Positions 4,307-61,570 of a DNA stretch of 64,000 nt are shown here, in pieces. Positions within the stretch are counted from its first letter, which is position 1, and every line of letters starts with the position of its first letter. Both the position numbers and the translations under genes were made by a program. Below the pieces are notes generated by a model, which made no database searches, was not told the DNA's origin, and worked only from the letters and a program-made list of their open reading frames with translations. The stretch comes from Bacteroidales bacterium. Lineage in GTDB: Bacteria; Bacteroidota; Bacteroidia; Bacteroidales; P3. Location: positions 62,001 to 126,000 of the forward strand of contig JAGCVI010000009.1 in the NCBI GenBank assembly GCA_017962445.1, written 5' to 3'.

Positions 4307-5974
4307 ATGGTATACAATAGAATTAAAATAGCTGTTGCTCTTATGCTGGCAGCCTTAGTGGCTCCACTGCATGCACAAACACCGGTTTCTTCCGACCGGA
4401 GTTTTGAACTTACTAAAAATCTCGAAATCTTCAGCAAACTTTACCAGACGCTCTATGTCATCTATGTGGACGACGTGGACCCTGGCGCAACGATGAAGAA
4501 AGCCATCGACGCAATGCTTGCTTCGCTCGATCCCTATACGGTTTATTATCCGGAGTCGGACATGGAGGATGTCAAGCTGCAGTTGCTTGGACAATATGGC
4601 GGTATCGGAGCCCTGATACATCAGCAGAACGACAAGATATATATTTCCGAGCCTTACAAGGACCTTCCTGCCGACAAGGCTGGTCTGCGAGCGGGCGACC
4701 GAATCCTTGCCGTTAACGGCGAATCAACTGAAGGCAAGTCGAATAATGATGTCAGTGCAGCAATGAGAGGACAGGCTGGTACAACGGTGAACCTAAAACT
4801 GGAACGCGACGGAAAAACATTCGAACGCGCCATTGTACGTGCCGAAATCAAGCTACCCAATGTTCCATACAGCGGAATGCTCAAAGGCAATATCGGTTAT
4901 GTGAAGCTTGACGAATTCACACAAGATGCCGCAAAGAATGTACGCGATGCCTTCGTGCGCCTAAAACGCGAAAATCCAGACATGAAGGGTTTTATTCTCG
5001 ACCTTCGTAACAACGGCGGTGGATTGATGAACGAGGCCGTCGACCTTGTCAATATCTTTGTAAAGAAGGGCAAACTGATTGTCGAGACCAAAGGAAAAGT
5101 GTCTACTAAAAACATGATGAGTTATACAAAACTGAATCCTGAAGACACTGAAATACCTGTGGCCGTGCTTATTAATGAGTATAGTGCTTCAGCATCGGAA
5201 ATCACCGCCGGTAGCCTGCAGGATCTTGACCGTGCTGTCATAATAGGTTCACGTTCATATGGCAAAGGCCTGGTACAAAATGTGCTACCTCTCGTATACA
5301 ACACCCAGATGAAGGTCACTGTATCGAAATACTACATTCCCAGCGGTCGTTGCATTCAGGCTCTCGACTATAGCCACAAAGACGAGAATGGTCGTGCCAC
5401 CAAGATACCCGACTCGCTCAAAACTGCATTCAAAACCGCCAACGGACGCATTGTCTATGACGGTTTTGGCATTGAGCCTGACATTGAGACCAAAACTGAA
5501 TACATGTCGTCTTTGTCGACGGTTTTGGTTTCGAAATTCCACATATTCAACTATGTGAATGAATTCGTAAAAACACATCCATCTATAGCGGCACCATCGG
5601 AATTTGAAATCACCGACGAGATATACAATGATTTCTCAAAATACCTTGCCGACAAAGATTGCAGTTATACCACTGAGACCGAGCACCTGCTCAAAGAGCT
5701 CCGCGAAGCCGCCAAGAATGACAAATATTACGATGCACTCGCCAGCAAAATAGAGGACCTGGAAACCCAACTAAAGAAGGACAAAGCCGACGATTTGACA
5801 AAATATCGCAAGGAAATCAGCTCATTGCTCAAGTCTGAAATCCTTGTGCGCTACTACTATGCCCCAGGCAGACTCGAAGGCTCTCTGGCCGACGATCCCG
5901 ATGTATTAAAAGCCATCGAGATTTTGAACGATTCCAAGCTCTATAACAGTATTTTAAAGAACACTAAAAAATAA
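4307..5974 (+). CDS. S41-family carboxy-terminal processing protease
   Basis: 555 residues. A signal peptide covers about 1-23 (ending LHA), so it acts in the periplasm. A PDZ domain follows (ADKAGLRAGDRILAVNGE), then the S41 catalytic domain with SASASE at 293-298 and SYGKGLVQ; Ser295 and Lys320 are 25 residues apart as in the Ser/Lys dyads of CtpA/Prc. The C-terminal extension of about 150 residues is helical and charged, as in Bacteroidales members. Expected role is trimming or degrading envelope proteins from the C-terminus. The substrate is unknown. About 50 bases separate it from the O-antigen ligase-like gene. Confidence 0.9.
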   Translation: MVYNRIKIAVALMLAALVAPLHAQTPVSSDRSFELTKNLEIFSKLYQTLYVIYVDDVDPGATMKKAIDAMLASLDPYTVYYPESDMEDVKLQLLGQYGGIGALIHQQNDKIYISEPYKDLPADKAGLRAGDRILAVNGESTEGKSNNDVSAAMRGQAGTTVNLKLERDGKTFERAIVRAEIKLPNVPYSGMLKGNIGYVKLDEFTQDAAKNVRDAFVRLKRENPDMKGFILDLRNNGGGLMNEAVDLVNIFVKKGKLIVETKGKVSTKNMMSYTKLNPEDTEIPVAVLINEYSASASEITAGSLQDLDRAVIIGSRSYGKGLVQNVLPLVYNTQMKVTVSKYYIPSGRCIQALDYSHKDENGRATKIPDSLKTAFKTANGRIVYDGFGIEPDIETKTEYMSSLSTVLVSKFHIFNYVNEFVKTHPSIAAPSEFEITDEIYNDFSKYLADKDCSYTTETEHLLKELREAAKNDKYYDALASKIEDLETQLKKDKADDLTKYRKEISSLLKSEILVRYYYAPGRLEGSLADDPDVLKAIEILNDSKLYNSILKNTKK

Positions 5975-9001: not shown

Positions 9002-10342
9002 ATGAAAGAGATTAAATGCCCCCATTGCGGAACTTCGTTCACAGTTAACGATTCTGACTATGAAGCAATAGTCAGCCAAATCAGGACCAAGGAGTTCAAC
9101 CAATCGCTCGAAGAGCGTCTGCATGAACAACATCAGATGGATTCCAAGAACATGAAACTGTACCATGAAAAAATCATGGCAGAAAAGGACAAGGAATATC
9201 AGTCATCGCTGAACGAGAAAAACCTTGCACTGAATCAACTGAAATCTGAAATTGAAACACTTAAACAACGAGAAGAAGAGGCACGGAGGCTGGCTCTACA
9301 AAACAGCGAATTGAAACACAGGGATGAAATAGACAAGTTAAAAACTGTTTTAGCGGCAAAAGAGAACGAAATAGAGAGAATGCGCAGCAATGTGGAAAAC
9401 GGCAAGAAGGATGTTGAATTTGCACGACTTGAGGAACAGAAAAAAGCTCAAGAAGAACTGAACCAGAAAAGCCTTGAAATAAGCAGTCTTACCAACCGCT
9501 TAGTATCTGAAAAGGAAAACTATGAGATGCGTCTGAAGGAATCGAACGAGATGATTGACAGGTTGAAAGACATGAAGACTCGTCTATCGACCAAGATGGT
9601 CGGCGAGACCCTTGAGCAGCACTGCAGCATACAGTTCGACACTACGATAAGAACCCTACTGCCCTACGCTACCTTCGAGAAAGACAACGAAGTGATTGAA
9701 GGCACAAAAGGTGATTTCATCTTCCGAGACTACGACAATGGACAGGAATACATCTCCATCATGTTCGAGATGAAAAACGAAAACGACGAAACCGCCTCCA
9801 AGCACAAGAACGAGGACTTTCTCGACAAGCTGGACAAAGACCGAAAAAAGAAAAAATGTGAATATGCCGTGTTAGTATCCATGCTTGAAATAGACAATGA
9901 GTTGTACAACAACGGAATAGTAGACAAATCGCATCGCTATGAGAAGATGTATGTCATTCGACCTCAGTTTTTCATCCCACTGATAACCTTATTGGTGCAG
10001 ACATCACGCAAGAGCATAGAACTGCAGCGACAGCTCGTGCTGGCAAAAAGCCAATCTGTTGATGTAAACAACTTCGAGAAAGAGCTCAACGACTTCAAGG
10101 ATGCTTTTGGTCGCAACTATCGACTTGCAAGCGACAAATTCAACACTGCCATAGAACAAATAGACAAAACCATAGAGCAACTAAACAAAATAAAGGAAAA
10201 CCTAAGAGGTTCGCAGAATCAACTGCGCTTGGCCAATGACAAAGCTGAAGCTGTAAGCGTAAAGAAACTTACTAAAAACAGTCCTTCGATGGCTGCCGCC
10301 ATTGCCGCTGCAAGTGCCTCAAAAGACAAAAATGACGAATAA
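9002..10342 (+). CDS. DUF2130 protein with long coiled coil and nuclease-like core
   Basis: 446 residues. It opens with a zinc-ribbon-like CPHCGTSF pair of cysteines, then a coiled coil rich in Glu/Lys from about 25 to 200, then the DUF2130 core. In the core, GDFIF near 237 and FEMKN near 255 give the Asp...Glu-x-Lys spacing of PD-(D/E)XK nuclease folds. A second helical stretch follows and an Ala-rich tail. The function of DUF2130 proteins is not established; a nucleic-acid enzyme related in layout to RmuC is my inference. Convergent with a minus-strand lipoprotein gene, 1 base apart. Confidence 0.7.
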   Translation: MKEIKCPHCGTSFTVNDSDYEAIVSQIRTKEFNQSLEERLHEQHQMDSKNMKLYHEKIMAEKDKEYQSSLNEKNLALNQLKSEIETLKQREEEARRLALQNSELKHRDEIDKLKTVLAAKENEIERMRSNVENGKKDVEFARLEEQKKAQEELNQKSLEISSLTNRLVSEKENYEMRLKESNEMIDRLKDMKTRLSTKMVGETLEQHCSIQFDTTIRTLLPYATFEKDNEVIEGTKGDFIFRDYDNGQEYISIMFEMKNENDETASKHKNEDFLDKLDKDRKKKKCEYAVLVSMLEIDNELYNNGIVDKSHRYEKMYVIRPQFFIPLITLLVQTSRKSIELQRQLVLAKSQSVDVNNFEKELNDFKDAFGRNYRLASDKFNTAIEQIDKTIEQLNKIKENLRGSQNQLRLANDKAEAVSVKKLTKNSPSMAAAIAAASASKDKNDE

Positions 10343-30465: not shown

Positions 30466-32733
30466 ATGTACAAGATTATCAACAGAGAACAGCTTACCGA
30501 CAGCATTGTCCTTATGGACATCGAAGCCCCTTGGATTGCCTGCAGTGGACAACCAGGACAATTTGTCATCGTGATTCCACATGAACGTGGCGAACGTGTA
30601 CCGCTAACTATCTGCGACATAAACAAAAGCAAAAAATCTGTAACCATTGTATATCAAGTGGTCGGAGAGTCGACAAAACGACTGGCTGAGATGAAGGCAG
30701 GAGACAGTGTCTTCACAATAGTCGGCCCACTCGGCAAACCAGCAGAAGTCATAGACATGTACGCCGAGAAAGACAACGAAAAGAAAGGTTCCATTCTTTT
30801 CGTGGCTGGCGGTGTAGGTACCGCTCCAGTATACCCTCAAGCGAAATGGGTTCATGCACAAGGTATTGCCTGCGATGTAATAATTGGAGCACGTAACAAA
30901 GAGCTACTGTTCTTCGAAGACAAAATGCGTAAAGAGTGCGATAATCTATATGTAATGACTGACGACGGCAGCTATGGAGAGAAAGGCCTTGTCACCGAGA
31001 AAATCAAACAACTTGTAGAAAGCGGCCATCACTATGACTGCTGTGTAGCTATAGGACCACTGCCCATGATGAAATTTGTGTCGCTTCTGACCAAACAATA
31101 TGGATTGAAGACTGTTGTATCGATGAACTGCATGATGGTTGACGGCACAGGTATGTGCGGTGCCTGCCGCGTCAGTGTCGGTAACAAGGTGCTTTTCACC
31201 TGTGTGGATGGCCCCGAATTCGATGGTCACATGGTCAATTTCGATGAGGCTATGAGCCGCCTTGCTCGCCCAGACGCAAAAAAATACCACATAGCCACAA
31301 GCGAGAATGGCCACACCTGTAATCTTACCGATGCTGTAGAAAAACAAATCGATACAGATGCCAAGAAAAGACAAAAGCCTGAGGAACAAGCACCGGATGC
31401 ACGCATCCACAATTTTGACGAAGTATCAAAAGGATTCACCAAAGAGCAAGCCATTGCAGAAGCAAGCCGCTGCCTGAATTGCAAACGTCCGATGTGCGTT
31501 GGACAATGTCCTGTAAGCATTCGCATTCCTGACTTCATCTACGCAGTAAAAGAAGGCGACTTTGCCAAAGCCGGATGCATAATTTCAGAAGACTCGGCAC
31601 TACCAGCAGTATGCGGACGTGTATGCCCACAGGAAACACAATGCGAAGGTGCATGTGTCCTTGGGAAAAAAGGAGAGCCAATCGCAATTGGAGCTCTTGA
31701 ACGTTTCGTGGCTGACTGGAACCGCGAGAATGGGACTAAAACGTCGGAAGCCAAAAATACAAACGGGAAGAAAGTGGCCATCATCGGTAGCGGCCCTTCC
31801 GGCCTCACCTGTGCCGGCGACCTGGCAAAACAAGGATTCAAAGTCACAATTTTCGAAGCTCTGCATCATGCCGGTGGTGTGTTGGTATATGGCATACCGG
31901 AATTCCGACTGCCGAAGCAGAAAGTTGTTGCTCCCGAAATAGAGAACCTTAAGAAACTAGGTGTCGAAATCGTTACCAATGTCATTGTCGGAAAATCCGT
32001 CACTATAGACGAACTTTTTGACAAACATGGTTATGAAGCTGTTTATATTGCTTCTGGTGCAGGTCTGCCCAAATTCATGAACATCCCTGGAGAAAACCTT
32101 GTCGGTGTAATTTCTGCCAACGAACTTCTTACACGAACAAACCTAATGCACGGCTACGATGAACAATACGACACACCTATTGTCCTTGGAAAGAAGGTTG
32201 CCATCGTAGGAGGAGGCAATGTCGCTATGGATGCAGCACGCACAGCACGCCGTTTAGGCTGTGAAGTTACTGTTATCTATCGCCGTGGCGAAGAGGACAT
32301 GCCCGCTCGAAAAGAAGAGGTGCACCATGCAAAGGAAGAAGGCATAGTATTCGCCTTCCAGACCAACCCCATCGAAGTACTGAACGACGGCAAAGGAAAC
32401 GTGGCAGGTGTTAAGCTGATACGTATGCAAATGGGCGAACCTGATGCCAGTGGCCGCCGTCGTTTCTCAGAAATAGAAGGCAGCGAGTTCATGCTTGAAC
32501 TTGACAACCTTGTCATTGCCCTCGGCACAAGTCCTAATCCACTCATCAAGAACACCACTCCCGGCCTTGACACCGAACGTTGGGGCGGCATCATTGCCAC
32601 TCCCGAAGGACAAACAACACGCCCGAATGTATATGCTGGCGGCGATGCCGTTAGCGGTGCTGCAACGGTAATACTTGCCATGGGAGCAGGCCGTCAGGCA
32701 GCAAAAGCAATTGCAGAACAATTAACCAAATAA
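30466..32733 (+). CDS. Fused NfnA-NfnB-type flavin/iron-sulfur oxidoreductase
   Basis: 755 residues. Residues 1 to about 275 form a ferredoxin-NADP-reductase-like unit as in NfnA or PyrK, with [2Fe-2S] cysteines at 222, 231, 234 and 246. From about 310 the chain is NfnB/glutamate-synthase-small-subunit-like: CLNCKRPMCVGQCPV and CGRVCPQETQCEGAC bind [4Fe-4S] clusters, followed by the FAD motif VAIIGSGPSGLTCAGDL and the NADPH motif VAIVGGGNVAMDAARTA. Separate NfnAB enzymes bifurcate electrons between ferredoxin, NAD and NADP. The fused form is common in Bacteroidota, often annotated as a dihydroorotate dehydrogenase/glutamate synthase bifunctional protein. No pyrD or gltB is nearby, which favours the Nfn reading. 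Confidence 0.88.
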   Translation: MYKIINREQLTDSIVLMDIEAPWIACSGQPGQFVIVIPHERGERVPLTICDINKSKKSVTIVYQVVGESTKRLAEMKAGDSVFTIVGPLGKPAEVIDMYAEKDNEKKGSILFVAGGVGTAPVYPQAKWVHAQGIACDVIIGARNKELLFFEDKMRKECDNLYVMTDDGSYGEKGLVTEKIKQLVESGHHYDCCVAIGPLPMMKFVSLLTKQYGLKTVVSMNCMMVDGTGMCGACRVSVGNKVLFTCVDGPEFDGHMVNFDEAMSRLARPDAKKYHIATSENGHTCNLTDAVEKQIDTDAKKRQKPEEQAPDARIHNFDEVSKGFTKEQAIAEASRCLNCKRPMCVGQCPVSIRIPDFIYAVKEGDFAKAGCIISEDSALPAVCGRVCPQETQCEGACVLGKKGEPIAIGALERFVADWNRENGTKTSEAKNTNGKKVAIIGSGPSGLTCAGDLAKQGFKVTIFEALHHAGGVLVYGIPEFRLPKQKVVAPEIENLKKLGVEIVTNVIVGKSVTIDELFDKHGYEAVYIASGAGLPKFMNIPGENLVGVISANELLTRTNLMHGYDEQYDTPIVLGKKVAIVGGGNVAMDAARTARRLGCEVTVIYRRGEEDMPARKEEVHHAKEEGIVFAFQTNPIEVLNDGKGNVAGVKLIRMQMGEPDASGRRRFSEIEGSEFMLELDNLVIALGTSPNPLIKNTTPGLDTERWGGIIATPEGQTTRPNVYAGGDAVSGAATVILAMGAGRQAAKAIAEQLTK

Positions 32734-32745
32734 AAACATTTTCAT

Positions 32746-33429
32746 ATGAAAACAAAACGTTTCTTCCAGATTGCAGCCATAGTTTCATTGGCTTCCGTAT
32801 TGTTGTTATCATCTGCCTGCAAAGGTAATGACAAAAAAAGAAGTAAAAAATCAAAGAAAGACAGCGTTGAGACAGAAATACAGCTTGCAGAATACCCAAG
32901 TCTGGCTCCTCAAGAAATAGATTGTCCTGAATGTACAGTTCACGAACGCAACATCTACATGATAAGGATAAACCGAAACGGCCAGATACTTGTCAACGGC
33001 CAGTTTACAAACATCAACGAAATAAAAGGGCAAGTCAAGGAATTCTTACAGAACCCACAAAACCTGCTTAATCTGCCTGAAAAGAGAACCATGTCATTTG
33101 CGCATCTTGGCAATTTTGACGTTTCAAAAGGAATGGTACTCATTCAGAAAGATGATGCAGACGTGGCTTCGAGGACATGCATGCGTATTGTTTACGAGAT
33201 AAACAACGCCATATGCGAGATGTACGATGAATTGTCGTTGGCAAAATTCGGAAAAAGTTACCCGGAACTTGATGAAGAGTTACGTAAAGAGATTGAACAA
33301 GCCATTCCTAACCCCATGTACTCGTACAATGAGGTAATTGAATCAGAGCCTCTCCCGGAAGAACCGGAACCTGTAGAATTGACAATCGTCGATGACGACG
33401 AAGAGATAATGTCCGAATTGATGTTTTAA
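32746..33429 (+). CDS. Lipoprotein carrying an ExbD-like periplasmic domain
   Basis: 227 residues. A signal peptide ends in SSAC (Cys25), then a Lys/Ser-rich linker, CPEC at 60-63, and from Arg68 to about 191 a domain that aligns without gaps at its start with the ExbD encoded at 60497: RNI-Y-x-I-R-I...ILVNG...KEFL against RNI-F-x-I-K-I...ILFNG...KEFL, then HLGN-FDVSKG against HLGN-IKVSKG, and KFGKSYPELD against RFSKSFDDLD with AIP after it. The ExbD transmembrane helix with its channel aspartate is absent. Function unknown; an acidic tail follows. It ends 5 bases before the convergent lepB. Confidence 0.8.
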   Translation: MKTKRFFQIAAIVSLASVLLLSSACKGNDKKRSKKSKKDSVETEIQLAEYPSLAPQEIDCPECTVHERNIYMIRINRNGQILVNGQFTNINEIKGQVKEFLQNPQNLLNLPEKRTMSFAHLGNFDVSKGMVLIQKDDADVASRTCMRIVYEINNAICEMYDELSLAKFGKSYPELDEELRKEIEQAIPNPMYSYNEVIESEPLPEEPEPVELTIVDDDEEIMSELMF

Positions 33430-58747: not shown

Positions 58748-59683
58748 ATGAAAAAAGTAATTGCTTTAATGTCGATATTTGGAATATTGACATTCGCCAA
58801 TCTCAACAGTGTTATGGCATCTTCTTCACAGCAGGAGCCTAAAAAGGATGCCAAAACCGAACAAGTGAAAAAAGATGCCAAGGCTGACCAGGCAAAGAAA
58901 GACGCAAAGGCCAACCAGGCAAAAAAGGATGCAAAGGTTGATCCTACAAAAGAAGAACCGACTTCTACCCCAAATGCCGGAAACGAAGAAAACAAGAATC
59001 CTGAGCCGGAGAATGTTGAGGAAAATAATAATGCACAGGATTCCGTTGCAAGCAAATCATTCCACGAAGTTCTTAAAGAAAAATACATCCAAGGTGGTGC
59101 TGGCTGGATGACCCCAGTGCTTATCTGCCTTGTGCTCGGTATGGCTCTCGTCATTGAGCGTATTATTTATCTGAACATGGCTACCTCCAACGTCAACAAA
59201 CTGCTCGCCGACATTGAAGGCAACGTCCAGAAGGGCGACTATGCAGCCGCAAAGGAAGTCTGCCGCAACACCCGTGGCCCTGTTGCCAGCATCTTCTACC
59301 AAGGTCTCGACCGTATTGACGAGGGTCTTGAGAACGTTGAAAAAGCCATCACCTCCTATGGTGGCGTACAGATGGCTCGCCTCGAGAGCAACCTCACTTG
59401 GATTGCACTGTTCATTGCCCTGGCTCCTTCATTCGGATTCCTCGGTACTGTGGTCGGTATGGTCCAGGCTTTTGACGATATTGAGACAGCCGGTGATATA
59501 AGCCCGCAGGTTGTCGCCCACGGTATGAAGATGGCTCTTTTGACCACTATCTTCGGTCTTATCGTTGCTATCATCCTTCAGATTTTCTACAACTATATCC
59601 TCACCAAAATCGAAGGTCTCGTTTCCCAAATGGAAGACGGTTCCATCACCTTCATGGATATCCTCATCAAGAACAAGAGATAA
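58748..59683 (+). CDS. exbB: MotA/TolQ/ExbB proton channel protein with Lys/Ala repeat linker
   Basis: 311 residues. A signal-like hydrophobic segment (4-24) precedes a low-complexity region with four 9-residue repeats beginning KKDAK (32-67) and a Glu/Asn-rich stretch. Three transmembrane helices of the ExbB core follow: VLICLVLGMALVIERII, IALFIALAPSFGFLGTVVGMV and ALLTTIFGLIVAIILQIFYN. GTVVGM and the TTIFGL segment are family hallmarks. With ExbD it forms a proton-driven motor for TonB-type transport. It is the first gene of the operon. Confidence 0.9.
   Translation: MKKVIALMSIFGILTFANLNSVMASSSQQEPKKDAKTEQVKKDAKADQAKKDAKANQAKKDAKVDPTKEEPTSTPNAGNEENKNPEPENVEENNNAQDSVASKSFHEVLKEKYIQGGAGWMTPVLICLVLGMALVIERIIYLNMATSNVNKLLADIEGNVQKGDYAAAKEVCRNTRGPVASIFYQGLDRIDEGLENVEKAITSYGGVQMARLESNLTWIALFIALAPSFGFLGTVVGMVQAFDDIETAGDISPQVVAHGMKMALLTTIFGLIVAIILQIFYNYILTKIEGLVSQMEDGSITFMDILIKNKR
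58841..58948 (+). repeat. Four 27-bp tandem coding repeats in exbB
   Basis: Four consecutive 9-codon units encode KKDAK followed by TEQV, ADQA, ANQA and VDPT. The DNA units share most bases but are not identical. Repeat number could vary between strains. Confidence 0.8.
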
Positions 59684-59734: not shown

Positions 59735-60490
59735 ATGAAAGAAAAGACAAGAAAATTAATATTACTCTGTAGTCTGGGTGTTGGGTTATTGATTACAATA
59801 ATCGCCATTCTATTTGCAGCAAGCCCAGATTGGTTGTATGGAATCTCTTGTAGCGAGGAAGACCAACAAGAAATTCAAAAGAAAAGTGAAGTAATAAAGA
59901 ATATTGACAATGACGACTATGCTCAACAGCTGTTTGATAAAATTGCCGAGCAACAAGATAAAGATGCTGCTAAAGAATACATTAACAATATAAAAGAGCT
60001 CAGAGAGAAAAAGGATAAGATAGAAGCACTTGACAAAGCTACAGTTGCCGACTACCTAAATGAAAAGAACAAAGACAATTCCAGCTGGTCTAAACTATCT
60101 GAGGAAAAAGTAACATTGGAATATCAGATAGAATATGCAAATGATATGCATGAATCTAAAAGAAATGTATCATTCACTATCTTTTTCTTCGCCATAGTTG
60201 TGATTGCCTGCGCATGCCTTATCCTTTGGCTTGTATTTGGCGTTATCAAGGTCGTCAAGAACCCCAAGAAACCTCTTATCGCCACCGGCATTATTGTTGT
60301 CGTACTCTTGGTTGCATTCTTGGTTGCCAAGATGGACAAGCCTTTGGATCCGGAGTTCCTGCAAAAGAATGAGTCTACCGACGGTGTCGCCAACCTCATT
60401 GCTATTGCCACATACGTCACCTACTTCACCGTATTCGGAGCATTGGCTATGCTGATTTATAGCGAGATTAACAAAGCATTAAAAAAATAA
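59735..60490 (+). CDS. Membrane protein of unknown function inside the exbB-exbD operon
   Basis: 251 residues. Four hydrophobic segments are visible: about 8-29, 146-170, 181-199 and 219-243. Between the first two lies a charged, coiled-coil-prone region of 110 residues (EIQKKSEVIKNIDN, LREKKDKIEALDKA). No family motif is recognised. Its position between exbB and the two exbD genes, 52 and 6 bases from its neighbours, suggests a part of the same membrane complex. Similar unnamed proteins occur in this position in other Bacteroidales. Confidence 0.75.
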   Translation: MKEKTRKLILLCSLGVGLLITIIAILFAASPDWLYGISCSEEDQQEIQKKSEVIKNIDNDDYAQQLFDKIAEQQDKDAAKEYINNIKELREKKDKIEALDKATVADYLNEKNKDNSSWSKLSEEKVTLEYQIEYANDMHESKRNVSFTIFFFAIVVIACACLILWLVFGVIKVVKNPKKPLIATGIIVVVLLVAFLVAKMDKPLDPEFLQKNESTDGVANLIAIATYVTYFTVFGALAMLIYSEINKALKK

Positions 60491-60496
60491 TCAATT

Positions 60497-61078
60497 ATGG
60501 CTAAAAGATCAACACCAGGTTTAAATACAAGTTCGATGGCTGACATATCGTTCTTGTTGCTCGCCTTCTTCCTGATGGTGTCCAGCATCAACAACGATAA
60601 GGGTATCCATCGTACCCTGCCTCAGCCGATGCCTGACAATGTTGAAAAGCCAGAAGTTCGTCAACGTAACATATTCCAGATAAAGATAAGCAGCAAAAAC
60701 AAGATTCTCTTTAATGGCGAAATCGGTGACCTTGCTGCCCTTAAGGAAAAAGCTAAAGAGTTCCTCAGAGTTAATACAAGCGACGATCCAAGATTCCCAG
60801 AAACCAAAGATCTCTATGTTAATCATCTTGGAAACATCAAAGTATCCAAAGGTGTGATTTCTCTGCAGAACGACCGTGGTACCTCTTATGAGAAATACTT
60901 CCAGGTACAGAACGAACTTACTGCCGCTATCAACGAAATGCGTGACGAGATGGCAATGACGAGATTCAGCAAATCGTTTGACGATTTGGACACAGCATAC
61001 CAGAATGCTATCAAAAAAGCAATCCCTGTTGCCATTTCCGAAGCTGAGCCTGTAGACAAAACCAAAAAAGCTAACTAA
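60497..61078 (+). CDS. exbD: ExbD/TolR biopolymer transport protein (first copy)
   Basis: 193 residues. A short cytosolic start, then one transmembrane helix with the proton-path aspartate Asp16 (SMADISFLLLAFFLMVSS), then a periplasmic domain that is long for the family, with RNIFQIKI at 57-64, ILFNG, HLGNIKVSKG and RFSKSFDDLD. It is this periplasmic part that the lipoprotein encoded at 32746 resembles. Followed after 18 bases by the second exbD, with GGAGG in the gap. Confidence 0.92.
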   Translation: MAKRSTPGLNTSSMADISFLLLAFFLMVSSINNDKGIHRTLPQPMPDNVEKPEVRQRNIFQIKISSKNKILFNGEIGDLAALKEKAKEFLRVNTSDDPRFPETKDLYVNHLGNIKVSKGVISLQNDRGTSYEKYFQVQNELTAAINEMRDEMAMTRFSKSFDDLDTAYQNAIKKAIPVAISEAEPVDKTKKAN

Positions 61079-61096: not shown

Positions 61097-61570
61097 ATGG
61101 CACGTTTTAAACAAAAAAATGACAAGGGTACGCCCGGTCTGAACATGGGTTCCATGTCCGACATCATCTTCATGCTTCTCTTCTTCTTCATGGTTATCAC
61201 AACCATGCGTGAAAGCACACTTTTCGTGAAGATTACCGCACCTAAAGGCTCACAGGTAGTCAAGCTCGAAAAGAAAAGTTTGGTGAGCTACATCAACGTC
61301 GGTGTGCCGAGTGGCGCAGAGTATCAGGCCAAATATGGTACTCAACCGCGTATTCAGTTGAACGACCAGATTTCGGATGTCGAAGACATCCGTCAATTTG
61401 TCGAAACTGAAAAGAACGCTCGCAATGGAGTAGACCGTGACCAACTCACGTTTGCCATCAAGGCCGACAAGGACGTAACAATGGGTATCATCAGCGATAT
61501 CAAGCATGAACTTAGATACGCATACGCACTCAAGATCTTCTACAACGCATCAAAAGACATCAAGATGTAA
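61097..61570 (+). CDS. exbD: ExbD/TolR biopolymer transport protein (second copy)
   Basis: 157 residues. Transmembrane helix with Asp22 (SMSDIIFMLLFFFMVITTM), then a periplasmic domain (LVSYINVGVPSGAEY, DQLTFAIKADKDVTMGIISDIKHEL). It differs from the first copy, so the two may form a mixed dimer in the motor or serve different partners. GGAGG lies 11 bases before the ATG, one of the best Shine-Dalgarno matches in the window. A terminator closes the operon. Confidence 0.93.
   Translation: MARFKQKNDKGTPGLNMGSMSDIIFMLLFFFMVITTMRESTLFVKITAPKGSQVVKLEKKSLVSYINVGVPSGAEYQAKYGTQPRIQLNDQISDVEDIRQFVETEKNARNGVDRDQLTFAIKADKDVTMGIISDIKHELRYAYALKIFYNASKDIKM

Follow-up and report, generated by a model that had tools for sequence, protein, structure and literature searches.

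P0001, a 227-residue protein encoded in the genome of a gut bacterium of the Bacteroidales, is a predicted lipoprotein with an ExbD-like periplasmic domain and no channel helix; this observation, made in the original prediction, is confirmed here. The periplasmic domain of ExbD is generally seen as part of a motor subunit, acting together with that protein's own proton-carrying helix; as read from sequence, P0001 is one of several apparently motor-less ExbD-domain proteins. There is very little doubt about its predicted anatomy, in which a lipobox-type signal peptide takes the place of the channel helix, the ExbD1 domain is kept, and a TonB-like block lies at the C-terminus. The earlier interpretation stood as to homology, helix loss, lipobox, unlinked position and the existence of relatives, while the TonB-like tail had been missed. 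The role that we infer as most likely for P0001 is that of a passive decoy, clutch or adaptor of the Ton system. Features are numbered within the window, the whole 64,000-nucleotide stretch of DNA that was analysed.

30466..32733, + strand: gltA-like gene upstream of P0001, 755 aa, the synteny anchor; named by eye
32746..33429, + strand: gene for P0001, ExbD-domain lipoprotein, 227 aa; from ORF reading
32746..32817, + strand: predicted signal peptide, residues 1-24 (MKTKR, a hydrophobic stretch, LSSA); sequence and pattern match
32818..32820, + strand: Cys25, predicted to be lipidated; lipobox pattern
32821..32862, + strand: strongly basic stretch, residues 26-39 (KGNDKKRSKKSKKD); sequence
32926..32937, + strand: CPEC, residues 61-64, Cys ahead of the ExbD-type domain; sequence comparison
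32926..33312, + strand: ExbD1-type periplasmic domain, residues 61-189; BLASTP, Pfam and HMM
33340..33375, + strand: Pro/Glu-rich linker, residues 199-210 (ESEPLPEEPEPV); sequence, compared with TonB linkers
33376..33420, + strand: TonB-linker block, residues 211-225 (ELTIVDDDEEIMSEL); matrix scores
33435..35252, − strand: lepB (signal peptidase I-like), convergent neighbour of P0001; by eye
58748..59683, + strand: ExbB, motor pentamer subunit; sequence
60497..61078, + strand: canonical ExbD1 with Asp-bearing transmembrane (TM) helix, the closest window paralogue of P0001; sequence and BLASTP
61097..61570, + strand: ExbD2; sequence and Pfam

Anatomy of P0001

The N-terminus passes the signal-peptide II lipobox pattern, with Cys25 and a Ser at position −3, as the claim of a signal peptide with Cys25 had it; none of the 109 canonical ExbD1s match this pattern. 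The TM helix with its proton-carrying Asp is absent and there is no Asp in the hydrophobic stretch, in line with the earlier view that the Asp-bearing segment had been replaced by a lipid anchor. Judging by these residues, P0001 probably leaves the cytoplasm, receives a lipid and is held at a membrane with its domain in the periplasm.

The alignment with the ExbD encoded at 60497 holds; a BLASTP comparison with the ExbD1 of the window shows 35% identity over 139 aa at E 5e-26, and an HMM that draws on nothing but 59 canonical ExbD1 domains of Bacteroidales, the kind of search that the original prediction had proposed, finds P0001 at E 5e-34 (best of 1000 shuffles, 0.99). Together these two values rule out chance similarity. 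The general Pfam ExbD model (PF02472) reaches E 0.0035, below its cut-off, and an NCBIfam match of MerP type (E 0.0018; 18 of 110 bits) lay under the threshold and was dismissed. A PDB sequence search with P0001 gave no match, a profile of P0001 and 40 ExbD1s retrieved no ExbD from the same database (best E 0.18), and the single-sequence AlphaFold model was set aside for its low pLDDT of 40.7.

Two motifs of canonical ExbD1s, DRGTSY (98/109) and ISEAEP (103/109), are altered both in P0001 and in type B, an ExbD-like lipoprotein encoded behind nfo in related genomes; their change in P0001 makes plain ExbD mimicry doubtful. DRGTSY aligns by eye with the E. coli loop between strand 3 and helix 2, given in excerpts of PMC10907165 as a site of ExbD dimer contacts. 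The CPEC pair noted earlier ahead of the domain is found at residues 61-64; a linker Cys is invariant at about the same place in all nine intact type-B proteins and present in 1/109 canonical ExbD1s, where the count covered positions 18-55 beyond the Asp. That single canonical protein is the second ExbD1 of L141; this locus encodes two Asp-helix ExbD1s at one 5.6-kb contig end (L141:1804-2481 and 4931-5575), of which the second alone was kept among the 109 and also in the tree and HMM set, one row being taken per locus. The ExbD1 row of L023, which contains X, was left out of the tree and HMM set.

The final 29 residues of P0001 (ESEPLPEEPEPVELTIVDDDEEIMSELMF) resemble a TonB linker, and the block within them is identical at 9-10 of 15 positions to each of the five genus TonB blocks compared. 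On a matrix from eight distinct congeneric TonB blocks, residues 211-225 score 29.4 bits; a motif filter took nine of the 23 TonB ORFs recognised in 30 loci into this matrix (eight distinct), the rest being scored only. Nearly all genus TonB ORFs lie at 22.8-44.4 bits on the same matrix, with one tonB-like ORF (L259 662-1351) at 15.9; besides P0001, the best non-TonB among 3351 ORFs of all loci reaches 17.9 bits (L041), and the next ORF of the window 12.8 (279 ORFs). None of 20000 shuffles of the tail attain 29.4 bits, the maximum being 25.2.

A second matrix drew exclusively on TonBs from other families of the Bacteroidales (a filtered ORF came from 12 of 14 regions, and the block was put in register by eye in nine); on it P0001 scores 19.8 and the next non-TonB ORF 17.6; 11 TonB-type ORFs lie above P0001 (up to 24.6) and the remaining ones below. 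The 109 canonical ExbD1s reach at most 14.3 on this matrix, and the nine type-B proteins at most 4.6. TonBs from the other families likewise carry the block behind a Pro-rich stretch, as in VIDIVDDDVEIEDEL; it was seen by eye in 9/12 of those read, diverged in several. Pfam reports no TonB_C domain for P0001, even with E allowed up to 1. The block is absent from type B and from two further lipoproteins, P0006 and P0007, so that P0001 alone carries one; a candidate block at the C-terminus of P0007 was rejected (9.0 bits against a window background of up to 12.8).

Within the tail, PVELTIVD fits the pattern of the E. coli TonB D-box, an alternation of hydrophobic and polar residues after Pro. 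Excerpts of PMC10907165 and PMC12215075 describe the D-box peptide as binding the groove of the ExbD dimer; because the E. coli D-box precedes the Pro-rich part and the Bacteroidales block follows it, their equivalence, and binding of the P0001 tail to ExbD, are put forward as what we infer. As an ExbD1 domain and a TonB-linker block stand in one chain, P0001 joins pieces of both motor partners, and the TonB-like tail, absent from the earlier reading, gives a more definite form to the idea of a docking or decoy role.

Locus, relatives and origin

The start codon of P0001 lies 12 nt past the stop of the gltA-like gene. P0001 was described as an unlinked paralogue, and this is borne out; the locus, between the gltA-like gene and lepB, has no exbB partner and is 27 kb from exbD1. 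Synonymous codon usage (−1.056) is like that of 25 other window genes (mean −1.051, sd 0.053); GC content is low, at 40.6% against a window-gene mean of 46.7% (z −2.2), with codon usage normal. The exb operon of the window encodes a 251-aa membrane protein between exbB and exbD1 (59735-60490), for which the relatives read have counterparts of 147-182 aa, and there is no tonB directly after exbD2. A coiled-coil match at 9002-10342 was examined and rejected.

P0001 is known from one genome, 80% complete, and the 119 other genus genomes searched contain no full-length match. Partial matches in the genus cover parts of residues 40-195 and fall in exbD1-like or type-B frames; 17/120 genus genomes, many of them incomplete, yield no match at all, and a contig scan of genomes with P0001 alone as query found no relative. 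A contig profile scan returned at least 446 relatives; the best 80 of these are all canonical ExbD1s (79 by motif, L227 by eye) and come, by title, mostly from rumen and gut Bacteroidales MAGs. Synteny was followed at 29 other gltA loci fetched; a pattern search found an ExbD-like ORF behind gltA in 0/27 loci with at least 800 nt there. In seven relatives lepB ends close behind gltA, at 15-90 nt in five and at about 200 and 237 nt in two, gaps that are too short for the 684-nt P0001 gene and therefore represent an empty site. The gltA synteny count omits L105 and L108, with 290 and 190 nt behind gltA, and L109, where lepB follows gltA across an N run.

The survey of other Bacteroidales for lipidated ExbD-like proteins, suggested in the original prediction, yielded type B, P0006, P0007, P0008 and P0010. 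Type B is encoded in 10/120 genus genomes and in none of 70 other genomes of the family; nine of the ten copies are intact, and all nine overlap the nfo end by 4 nt. Lipobox conservation among homologues is seen here, as the signal peptide of all nine intact proteins ends at a Cys and 8/9 pass the lipobox pattern; the only residues invariant in 9/9 are the lipobox Cys and the Cys just ahead of the domain. A dN/dS of 0.17-0.43 over 36 pairs points to purifying selection. The rearranged copy in G009, left out of dN/dS, is joined behind another ORF whose signal peptide has no lipobox Cys, and in G047 there is a 29-residue remnant. P0006 (Pfam ExbD E 1.2e-13), which has no linker Cys, and P0007 are encoded in one genome, G107. 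P0008 and P0010, from two genomes of another genus, are lipoproteins with an ExbD-like domain followed by TonB_C (Pfam E ~5e-18); one of these two genomes also encodes P0009, composed of a zinc ribbon, a TM segment and an ExbD-like domain, beside a Ser/Thr-kinase-like ORF (L098:1126-2121). P0014, from an order survey of 109 genomes, is a secreted form of the ExbD domain without a lipobox. The ExbD1-only HMM matches P0004 and P0005 (both type B), P0006-P0010 and P0014 at E ~9e-13 or better. Six of the nine intact type-B proteins entered the tree and two the HMM test; orphan counts omit the contig-edge fragments G064 and G129 and the 89-aa frame of G130.

Other membrane proteins end in tandem ExbD domains. 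Three proteins of ~690 aa match Pfam Peptidase_M56 (E 5.5e-12 to 5.5e-11) and, sub-threshold, Pfam ExbD (2.3e-5 to 1.2e-4), and have an extra C-terminal ExbD1-like domain by the ExbD1-only HMM (E 4e-12, 3e-10 and 2e-7); a BlaI-like ORF, named by eye, lies just upstream in the three loci with a visible flank (L142, L143, L144). When the tandem region was compared with 295 genomes of the order, 16 matched: eight with frames of 661-709 aa that appear by eye to be the same M56-ExbD protein, four with 405-495-aa frames that have several hydrophobic stretches (by eye) and the same tandem, one of them being a shorter ORF when read from the first start codon, and four with exbD-size frames of 157-202 aa. 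The window's own genome has no match to the tandem at E 1e-12.

L097:1102-2154; L095:1138-2307: lipoprotein, ExbD-like domain then TonB_C
L142, L143, L144, L228-L235: M56 (BlaR1-type) proteins with a C-terminal ExbD tandem
L236, L237, L238, L239: proteins with several TM segments (by eye) and an ExbD-like tandem at the end

Detached pieces occur on the TonB side as well. The window's genome has six places with TonB_C, one of them (L241) a TonB; at three of the six (L240, L244 and L245) the protein starts like a signal peptide or has WG-like repeats, as judged by eye, and shows no evident TonB anchor, so that these are detached TonB pieces too. In G130 an 89-aa piece of ExbD1 (L096:1462-1731) stands ahead of a complete ExbD2, perhaps in a decaying second exb locus.

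In a tree of 72 domains, P0001, on a branch 1.83 long, falls in a group with the TonB fusions, P0009 and type B (91/92, unstarred, with long branches), and P0006 joins the ExbD1s from G117 and from its own genome (94/71). By the AU test, one origin for all 13 orphan rows is disfavoured and not rejected (p 0.079), one origin for 11 rows, without L100 and L140, is not rejected (p 0.376), and neither is P0001 forced with its own ExbD1, L015 and L030 (p 0.097). Recent duplication of the window's own exbD1 is thus not taken as established, and the tree places P0001 with other orphans.

Proposed role and its alternatives

Gut Bacteroidales depend heavily on TonB-dependent transport. The preferred reading, given only a little under an even chance, is that P0001 is an ExbD1 paralogue turned lipoprotein which acts as a passive clutch, decoy or tether on the Ton motor; without a path for protons, it cannot do a motor's work itself. 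The ExbD-like domain would dimerize, perhaps locked by the Cys61/Cys64 pair, and the TonB-like tail would dock as a β-strand, either in the groove of P0001 itself or in that of ExbD1/ExbD2 within the ExbBD motor. P0001 would then be a passive clutch or decoy competing with TonB for the motor; alternatively, it would tether the motor to the membrane in which it is anchored. The docking or decoy step taken by itself is tentative and is put slightly lower. Excerpts of PMC10771500 describe an ExbD linker strand that closes the dimer and is replaced in the open groove by the TonB peptide; there, an engineered linker Cys, V47C, locks the dimer by a disulfide, and the locked ExbD does not support growth via the Has system, which counts against the model for P0001. 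The distribution of the linker Cys (P0001 and 9/9 intact type-B proteins, against 1/109 canonical ExbD1s) makes a covalent dimer plausible. P0008 and P0010, in which a lipoprotein combines an ExbD-like domain with TonB_C, speak for the model; the altered DRGTSY and ISEAEP motifs, the occurrence of P0001 in a single incomplete genome and the lack of an ExbD among the PDB sequences retrieved speak against it. The TonB block is found in P0001 only and P0006 has no linker Cys, so the model does not span the whole group.

A broader proposal, possible and on the unlikely side, is that Bacteroidales use detached ExbD domains as a general Ton 'receiver' module, found in lipoproteins, TonB_C fusions, polytopic proteins and BlaR1-type proteases, with P0001 as a lipid-anchored ExbD-TonB hybrid clutch or decoy on the ExbBD motor. 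Helix-less ExbD domains, together with the TonB segment of P0001, suggest that passive proteins can sense, clutch or compete with the Ton motor; if true, this bears on how gut Bacteroidales ration motor power among many transporters.

The alternative that survives best, itself rather improbable, is that the domain has diverged towards a different partner in the envelope (peptidoglycan, a protein of the outer membrane or the plug of a transporter), with no Ton role left and a tail that complements its own domain. The altered DRGTSY and ISEAEP motifs are consistent with such a drift, as are the positions of type B, at the nfo end, and of P0001, between gltA and lepB, neither being in an exb operon; anionic polymers are possible ligands of the basic residues that follow Cys25, and the title of PMC10771500, which names a role of ExbD with peptidoglycan, was counted on this side too. 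The TonB-linker block of P0001, however, points to the Ton machinery.

Less probable by far is that P0001 informs another protein of how the Ton system stands (free TonB or an idle motor), as M56-ExbD proteins may. Such a role would suit the tandem ExbD domains of M56 proteins in 8/295 order genomes (Pfam was run on three), the BlaI-like ORF upstream at three M56 loci and the ExbD-like domain of P0009 beside its kinase-like ORF; however, P0001 has no signalling domain, its neighbours look housekeeping, and its own genome gave no match to the M56-ExbD tandem at the cut-off used.

It is similarly improbable that P0001 is a drifting duplicate without function, as its occurrence in a single genome, the long branch and the lack of a full-length match in 119 genus genomes, along with the rearranged and remnant type-B copies of G009 and G047, might suggest. 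The 227-codon frame is intact with normal codon usage, the TonB block has been kept or gained, and the related type-B genes are under purifying selection, all of which argue against it. A degenerate motor subunit, with an uncleaved N-terminal TM anchor still entering the ExbB ring, is highly improbable: a hydrophobic stretch does lie at the position of the ExbD TM helix, but it contains no Asp, it ends in a lipobox and Cys25, and KKRSKKSKK rather than an ExbD linker follows directly.

Comparison with known systems

Among the matches listed in a literature search, mostly open-access, there was no lipidated ExbD protein, ExbD-domain M56 protein or Bacteroidales TonB-linker block. The ExbD1 subtype of Bacteroidales ExbD/TolR proteins (PF02472) can be aligned with P0001 over residues 61-189; P0001 differs in lacking the Asp TM helix, in its lipobox-type N-terminus, in its place outside an exb operon, in the altered DRGTSY and ISEAEP motifs and in the extra Pro/Glu-rich and TonB-like tail. 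With Bacteroidales TonB (L241) it shares the conserved linker block and the Pro/Glu-rich stretch ahead of it, but has neither the TonB TM helix nor the TonB_C domain. Set beside the E. coli complex of the TonB D-box with the ExbD dimer, as excerpted from PMC10907165, P-VELTIVD of P0001 fits the pattern and differs in its position relative to the Pro-rich region.

Type B shares with P0001 a signal peptide ending at a Cys, the linker Cys and an ExbD1-like domain; it differs in a Pro-rich insertion inside the domain, in the lack of a TonB block and in its locus. P0008 and P0010 share with P0001 the lipobox, the ExbD1-like domain and a TonB piece in the same chain, this piece being the C-terminal domain in their case and the linker block in P0001. 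The nearest idea met is that of the vWA proteins described in parts of PMC12204202, which have a TolR/ExbD-like helix but no ExbD domain; they represent the reverse swap, in which a retained motor helix stands beside a substitute for the periplasmic domain.
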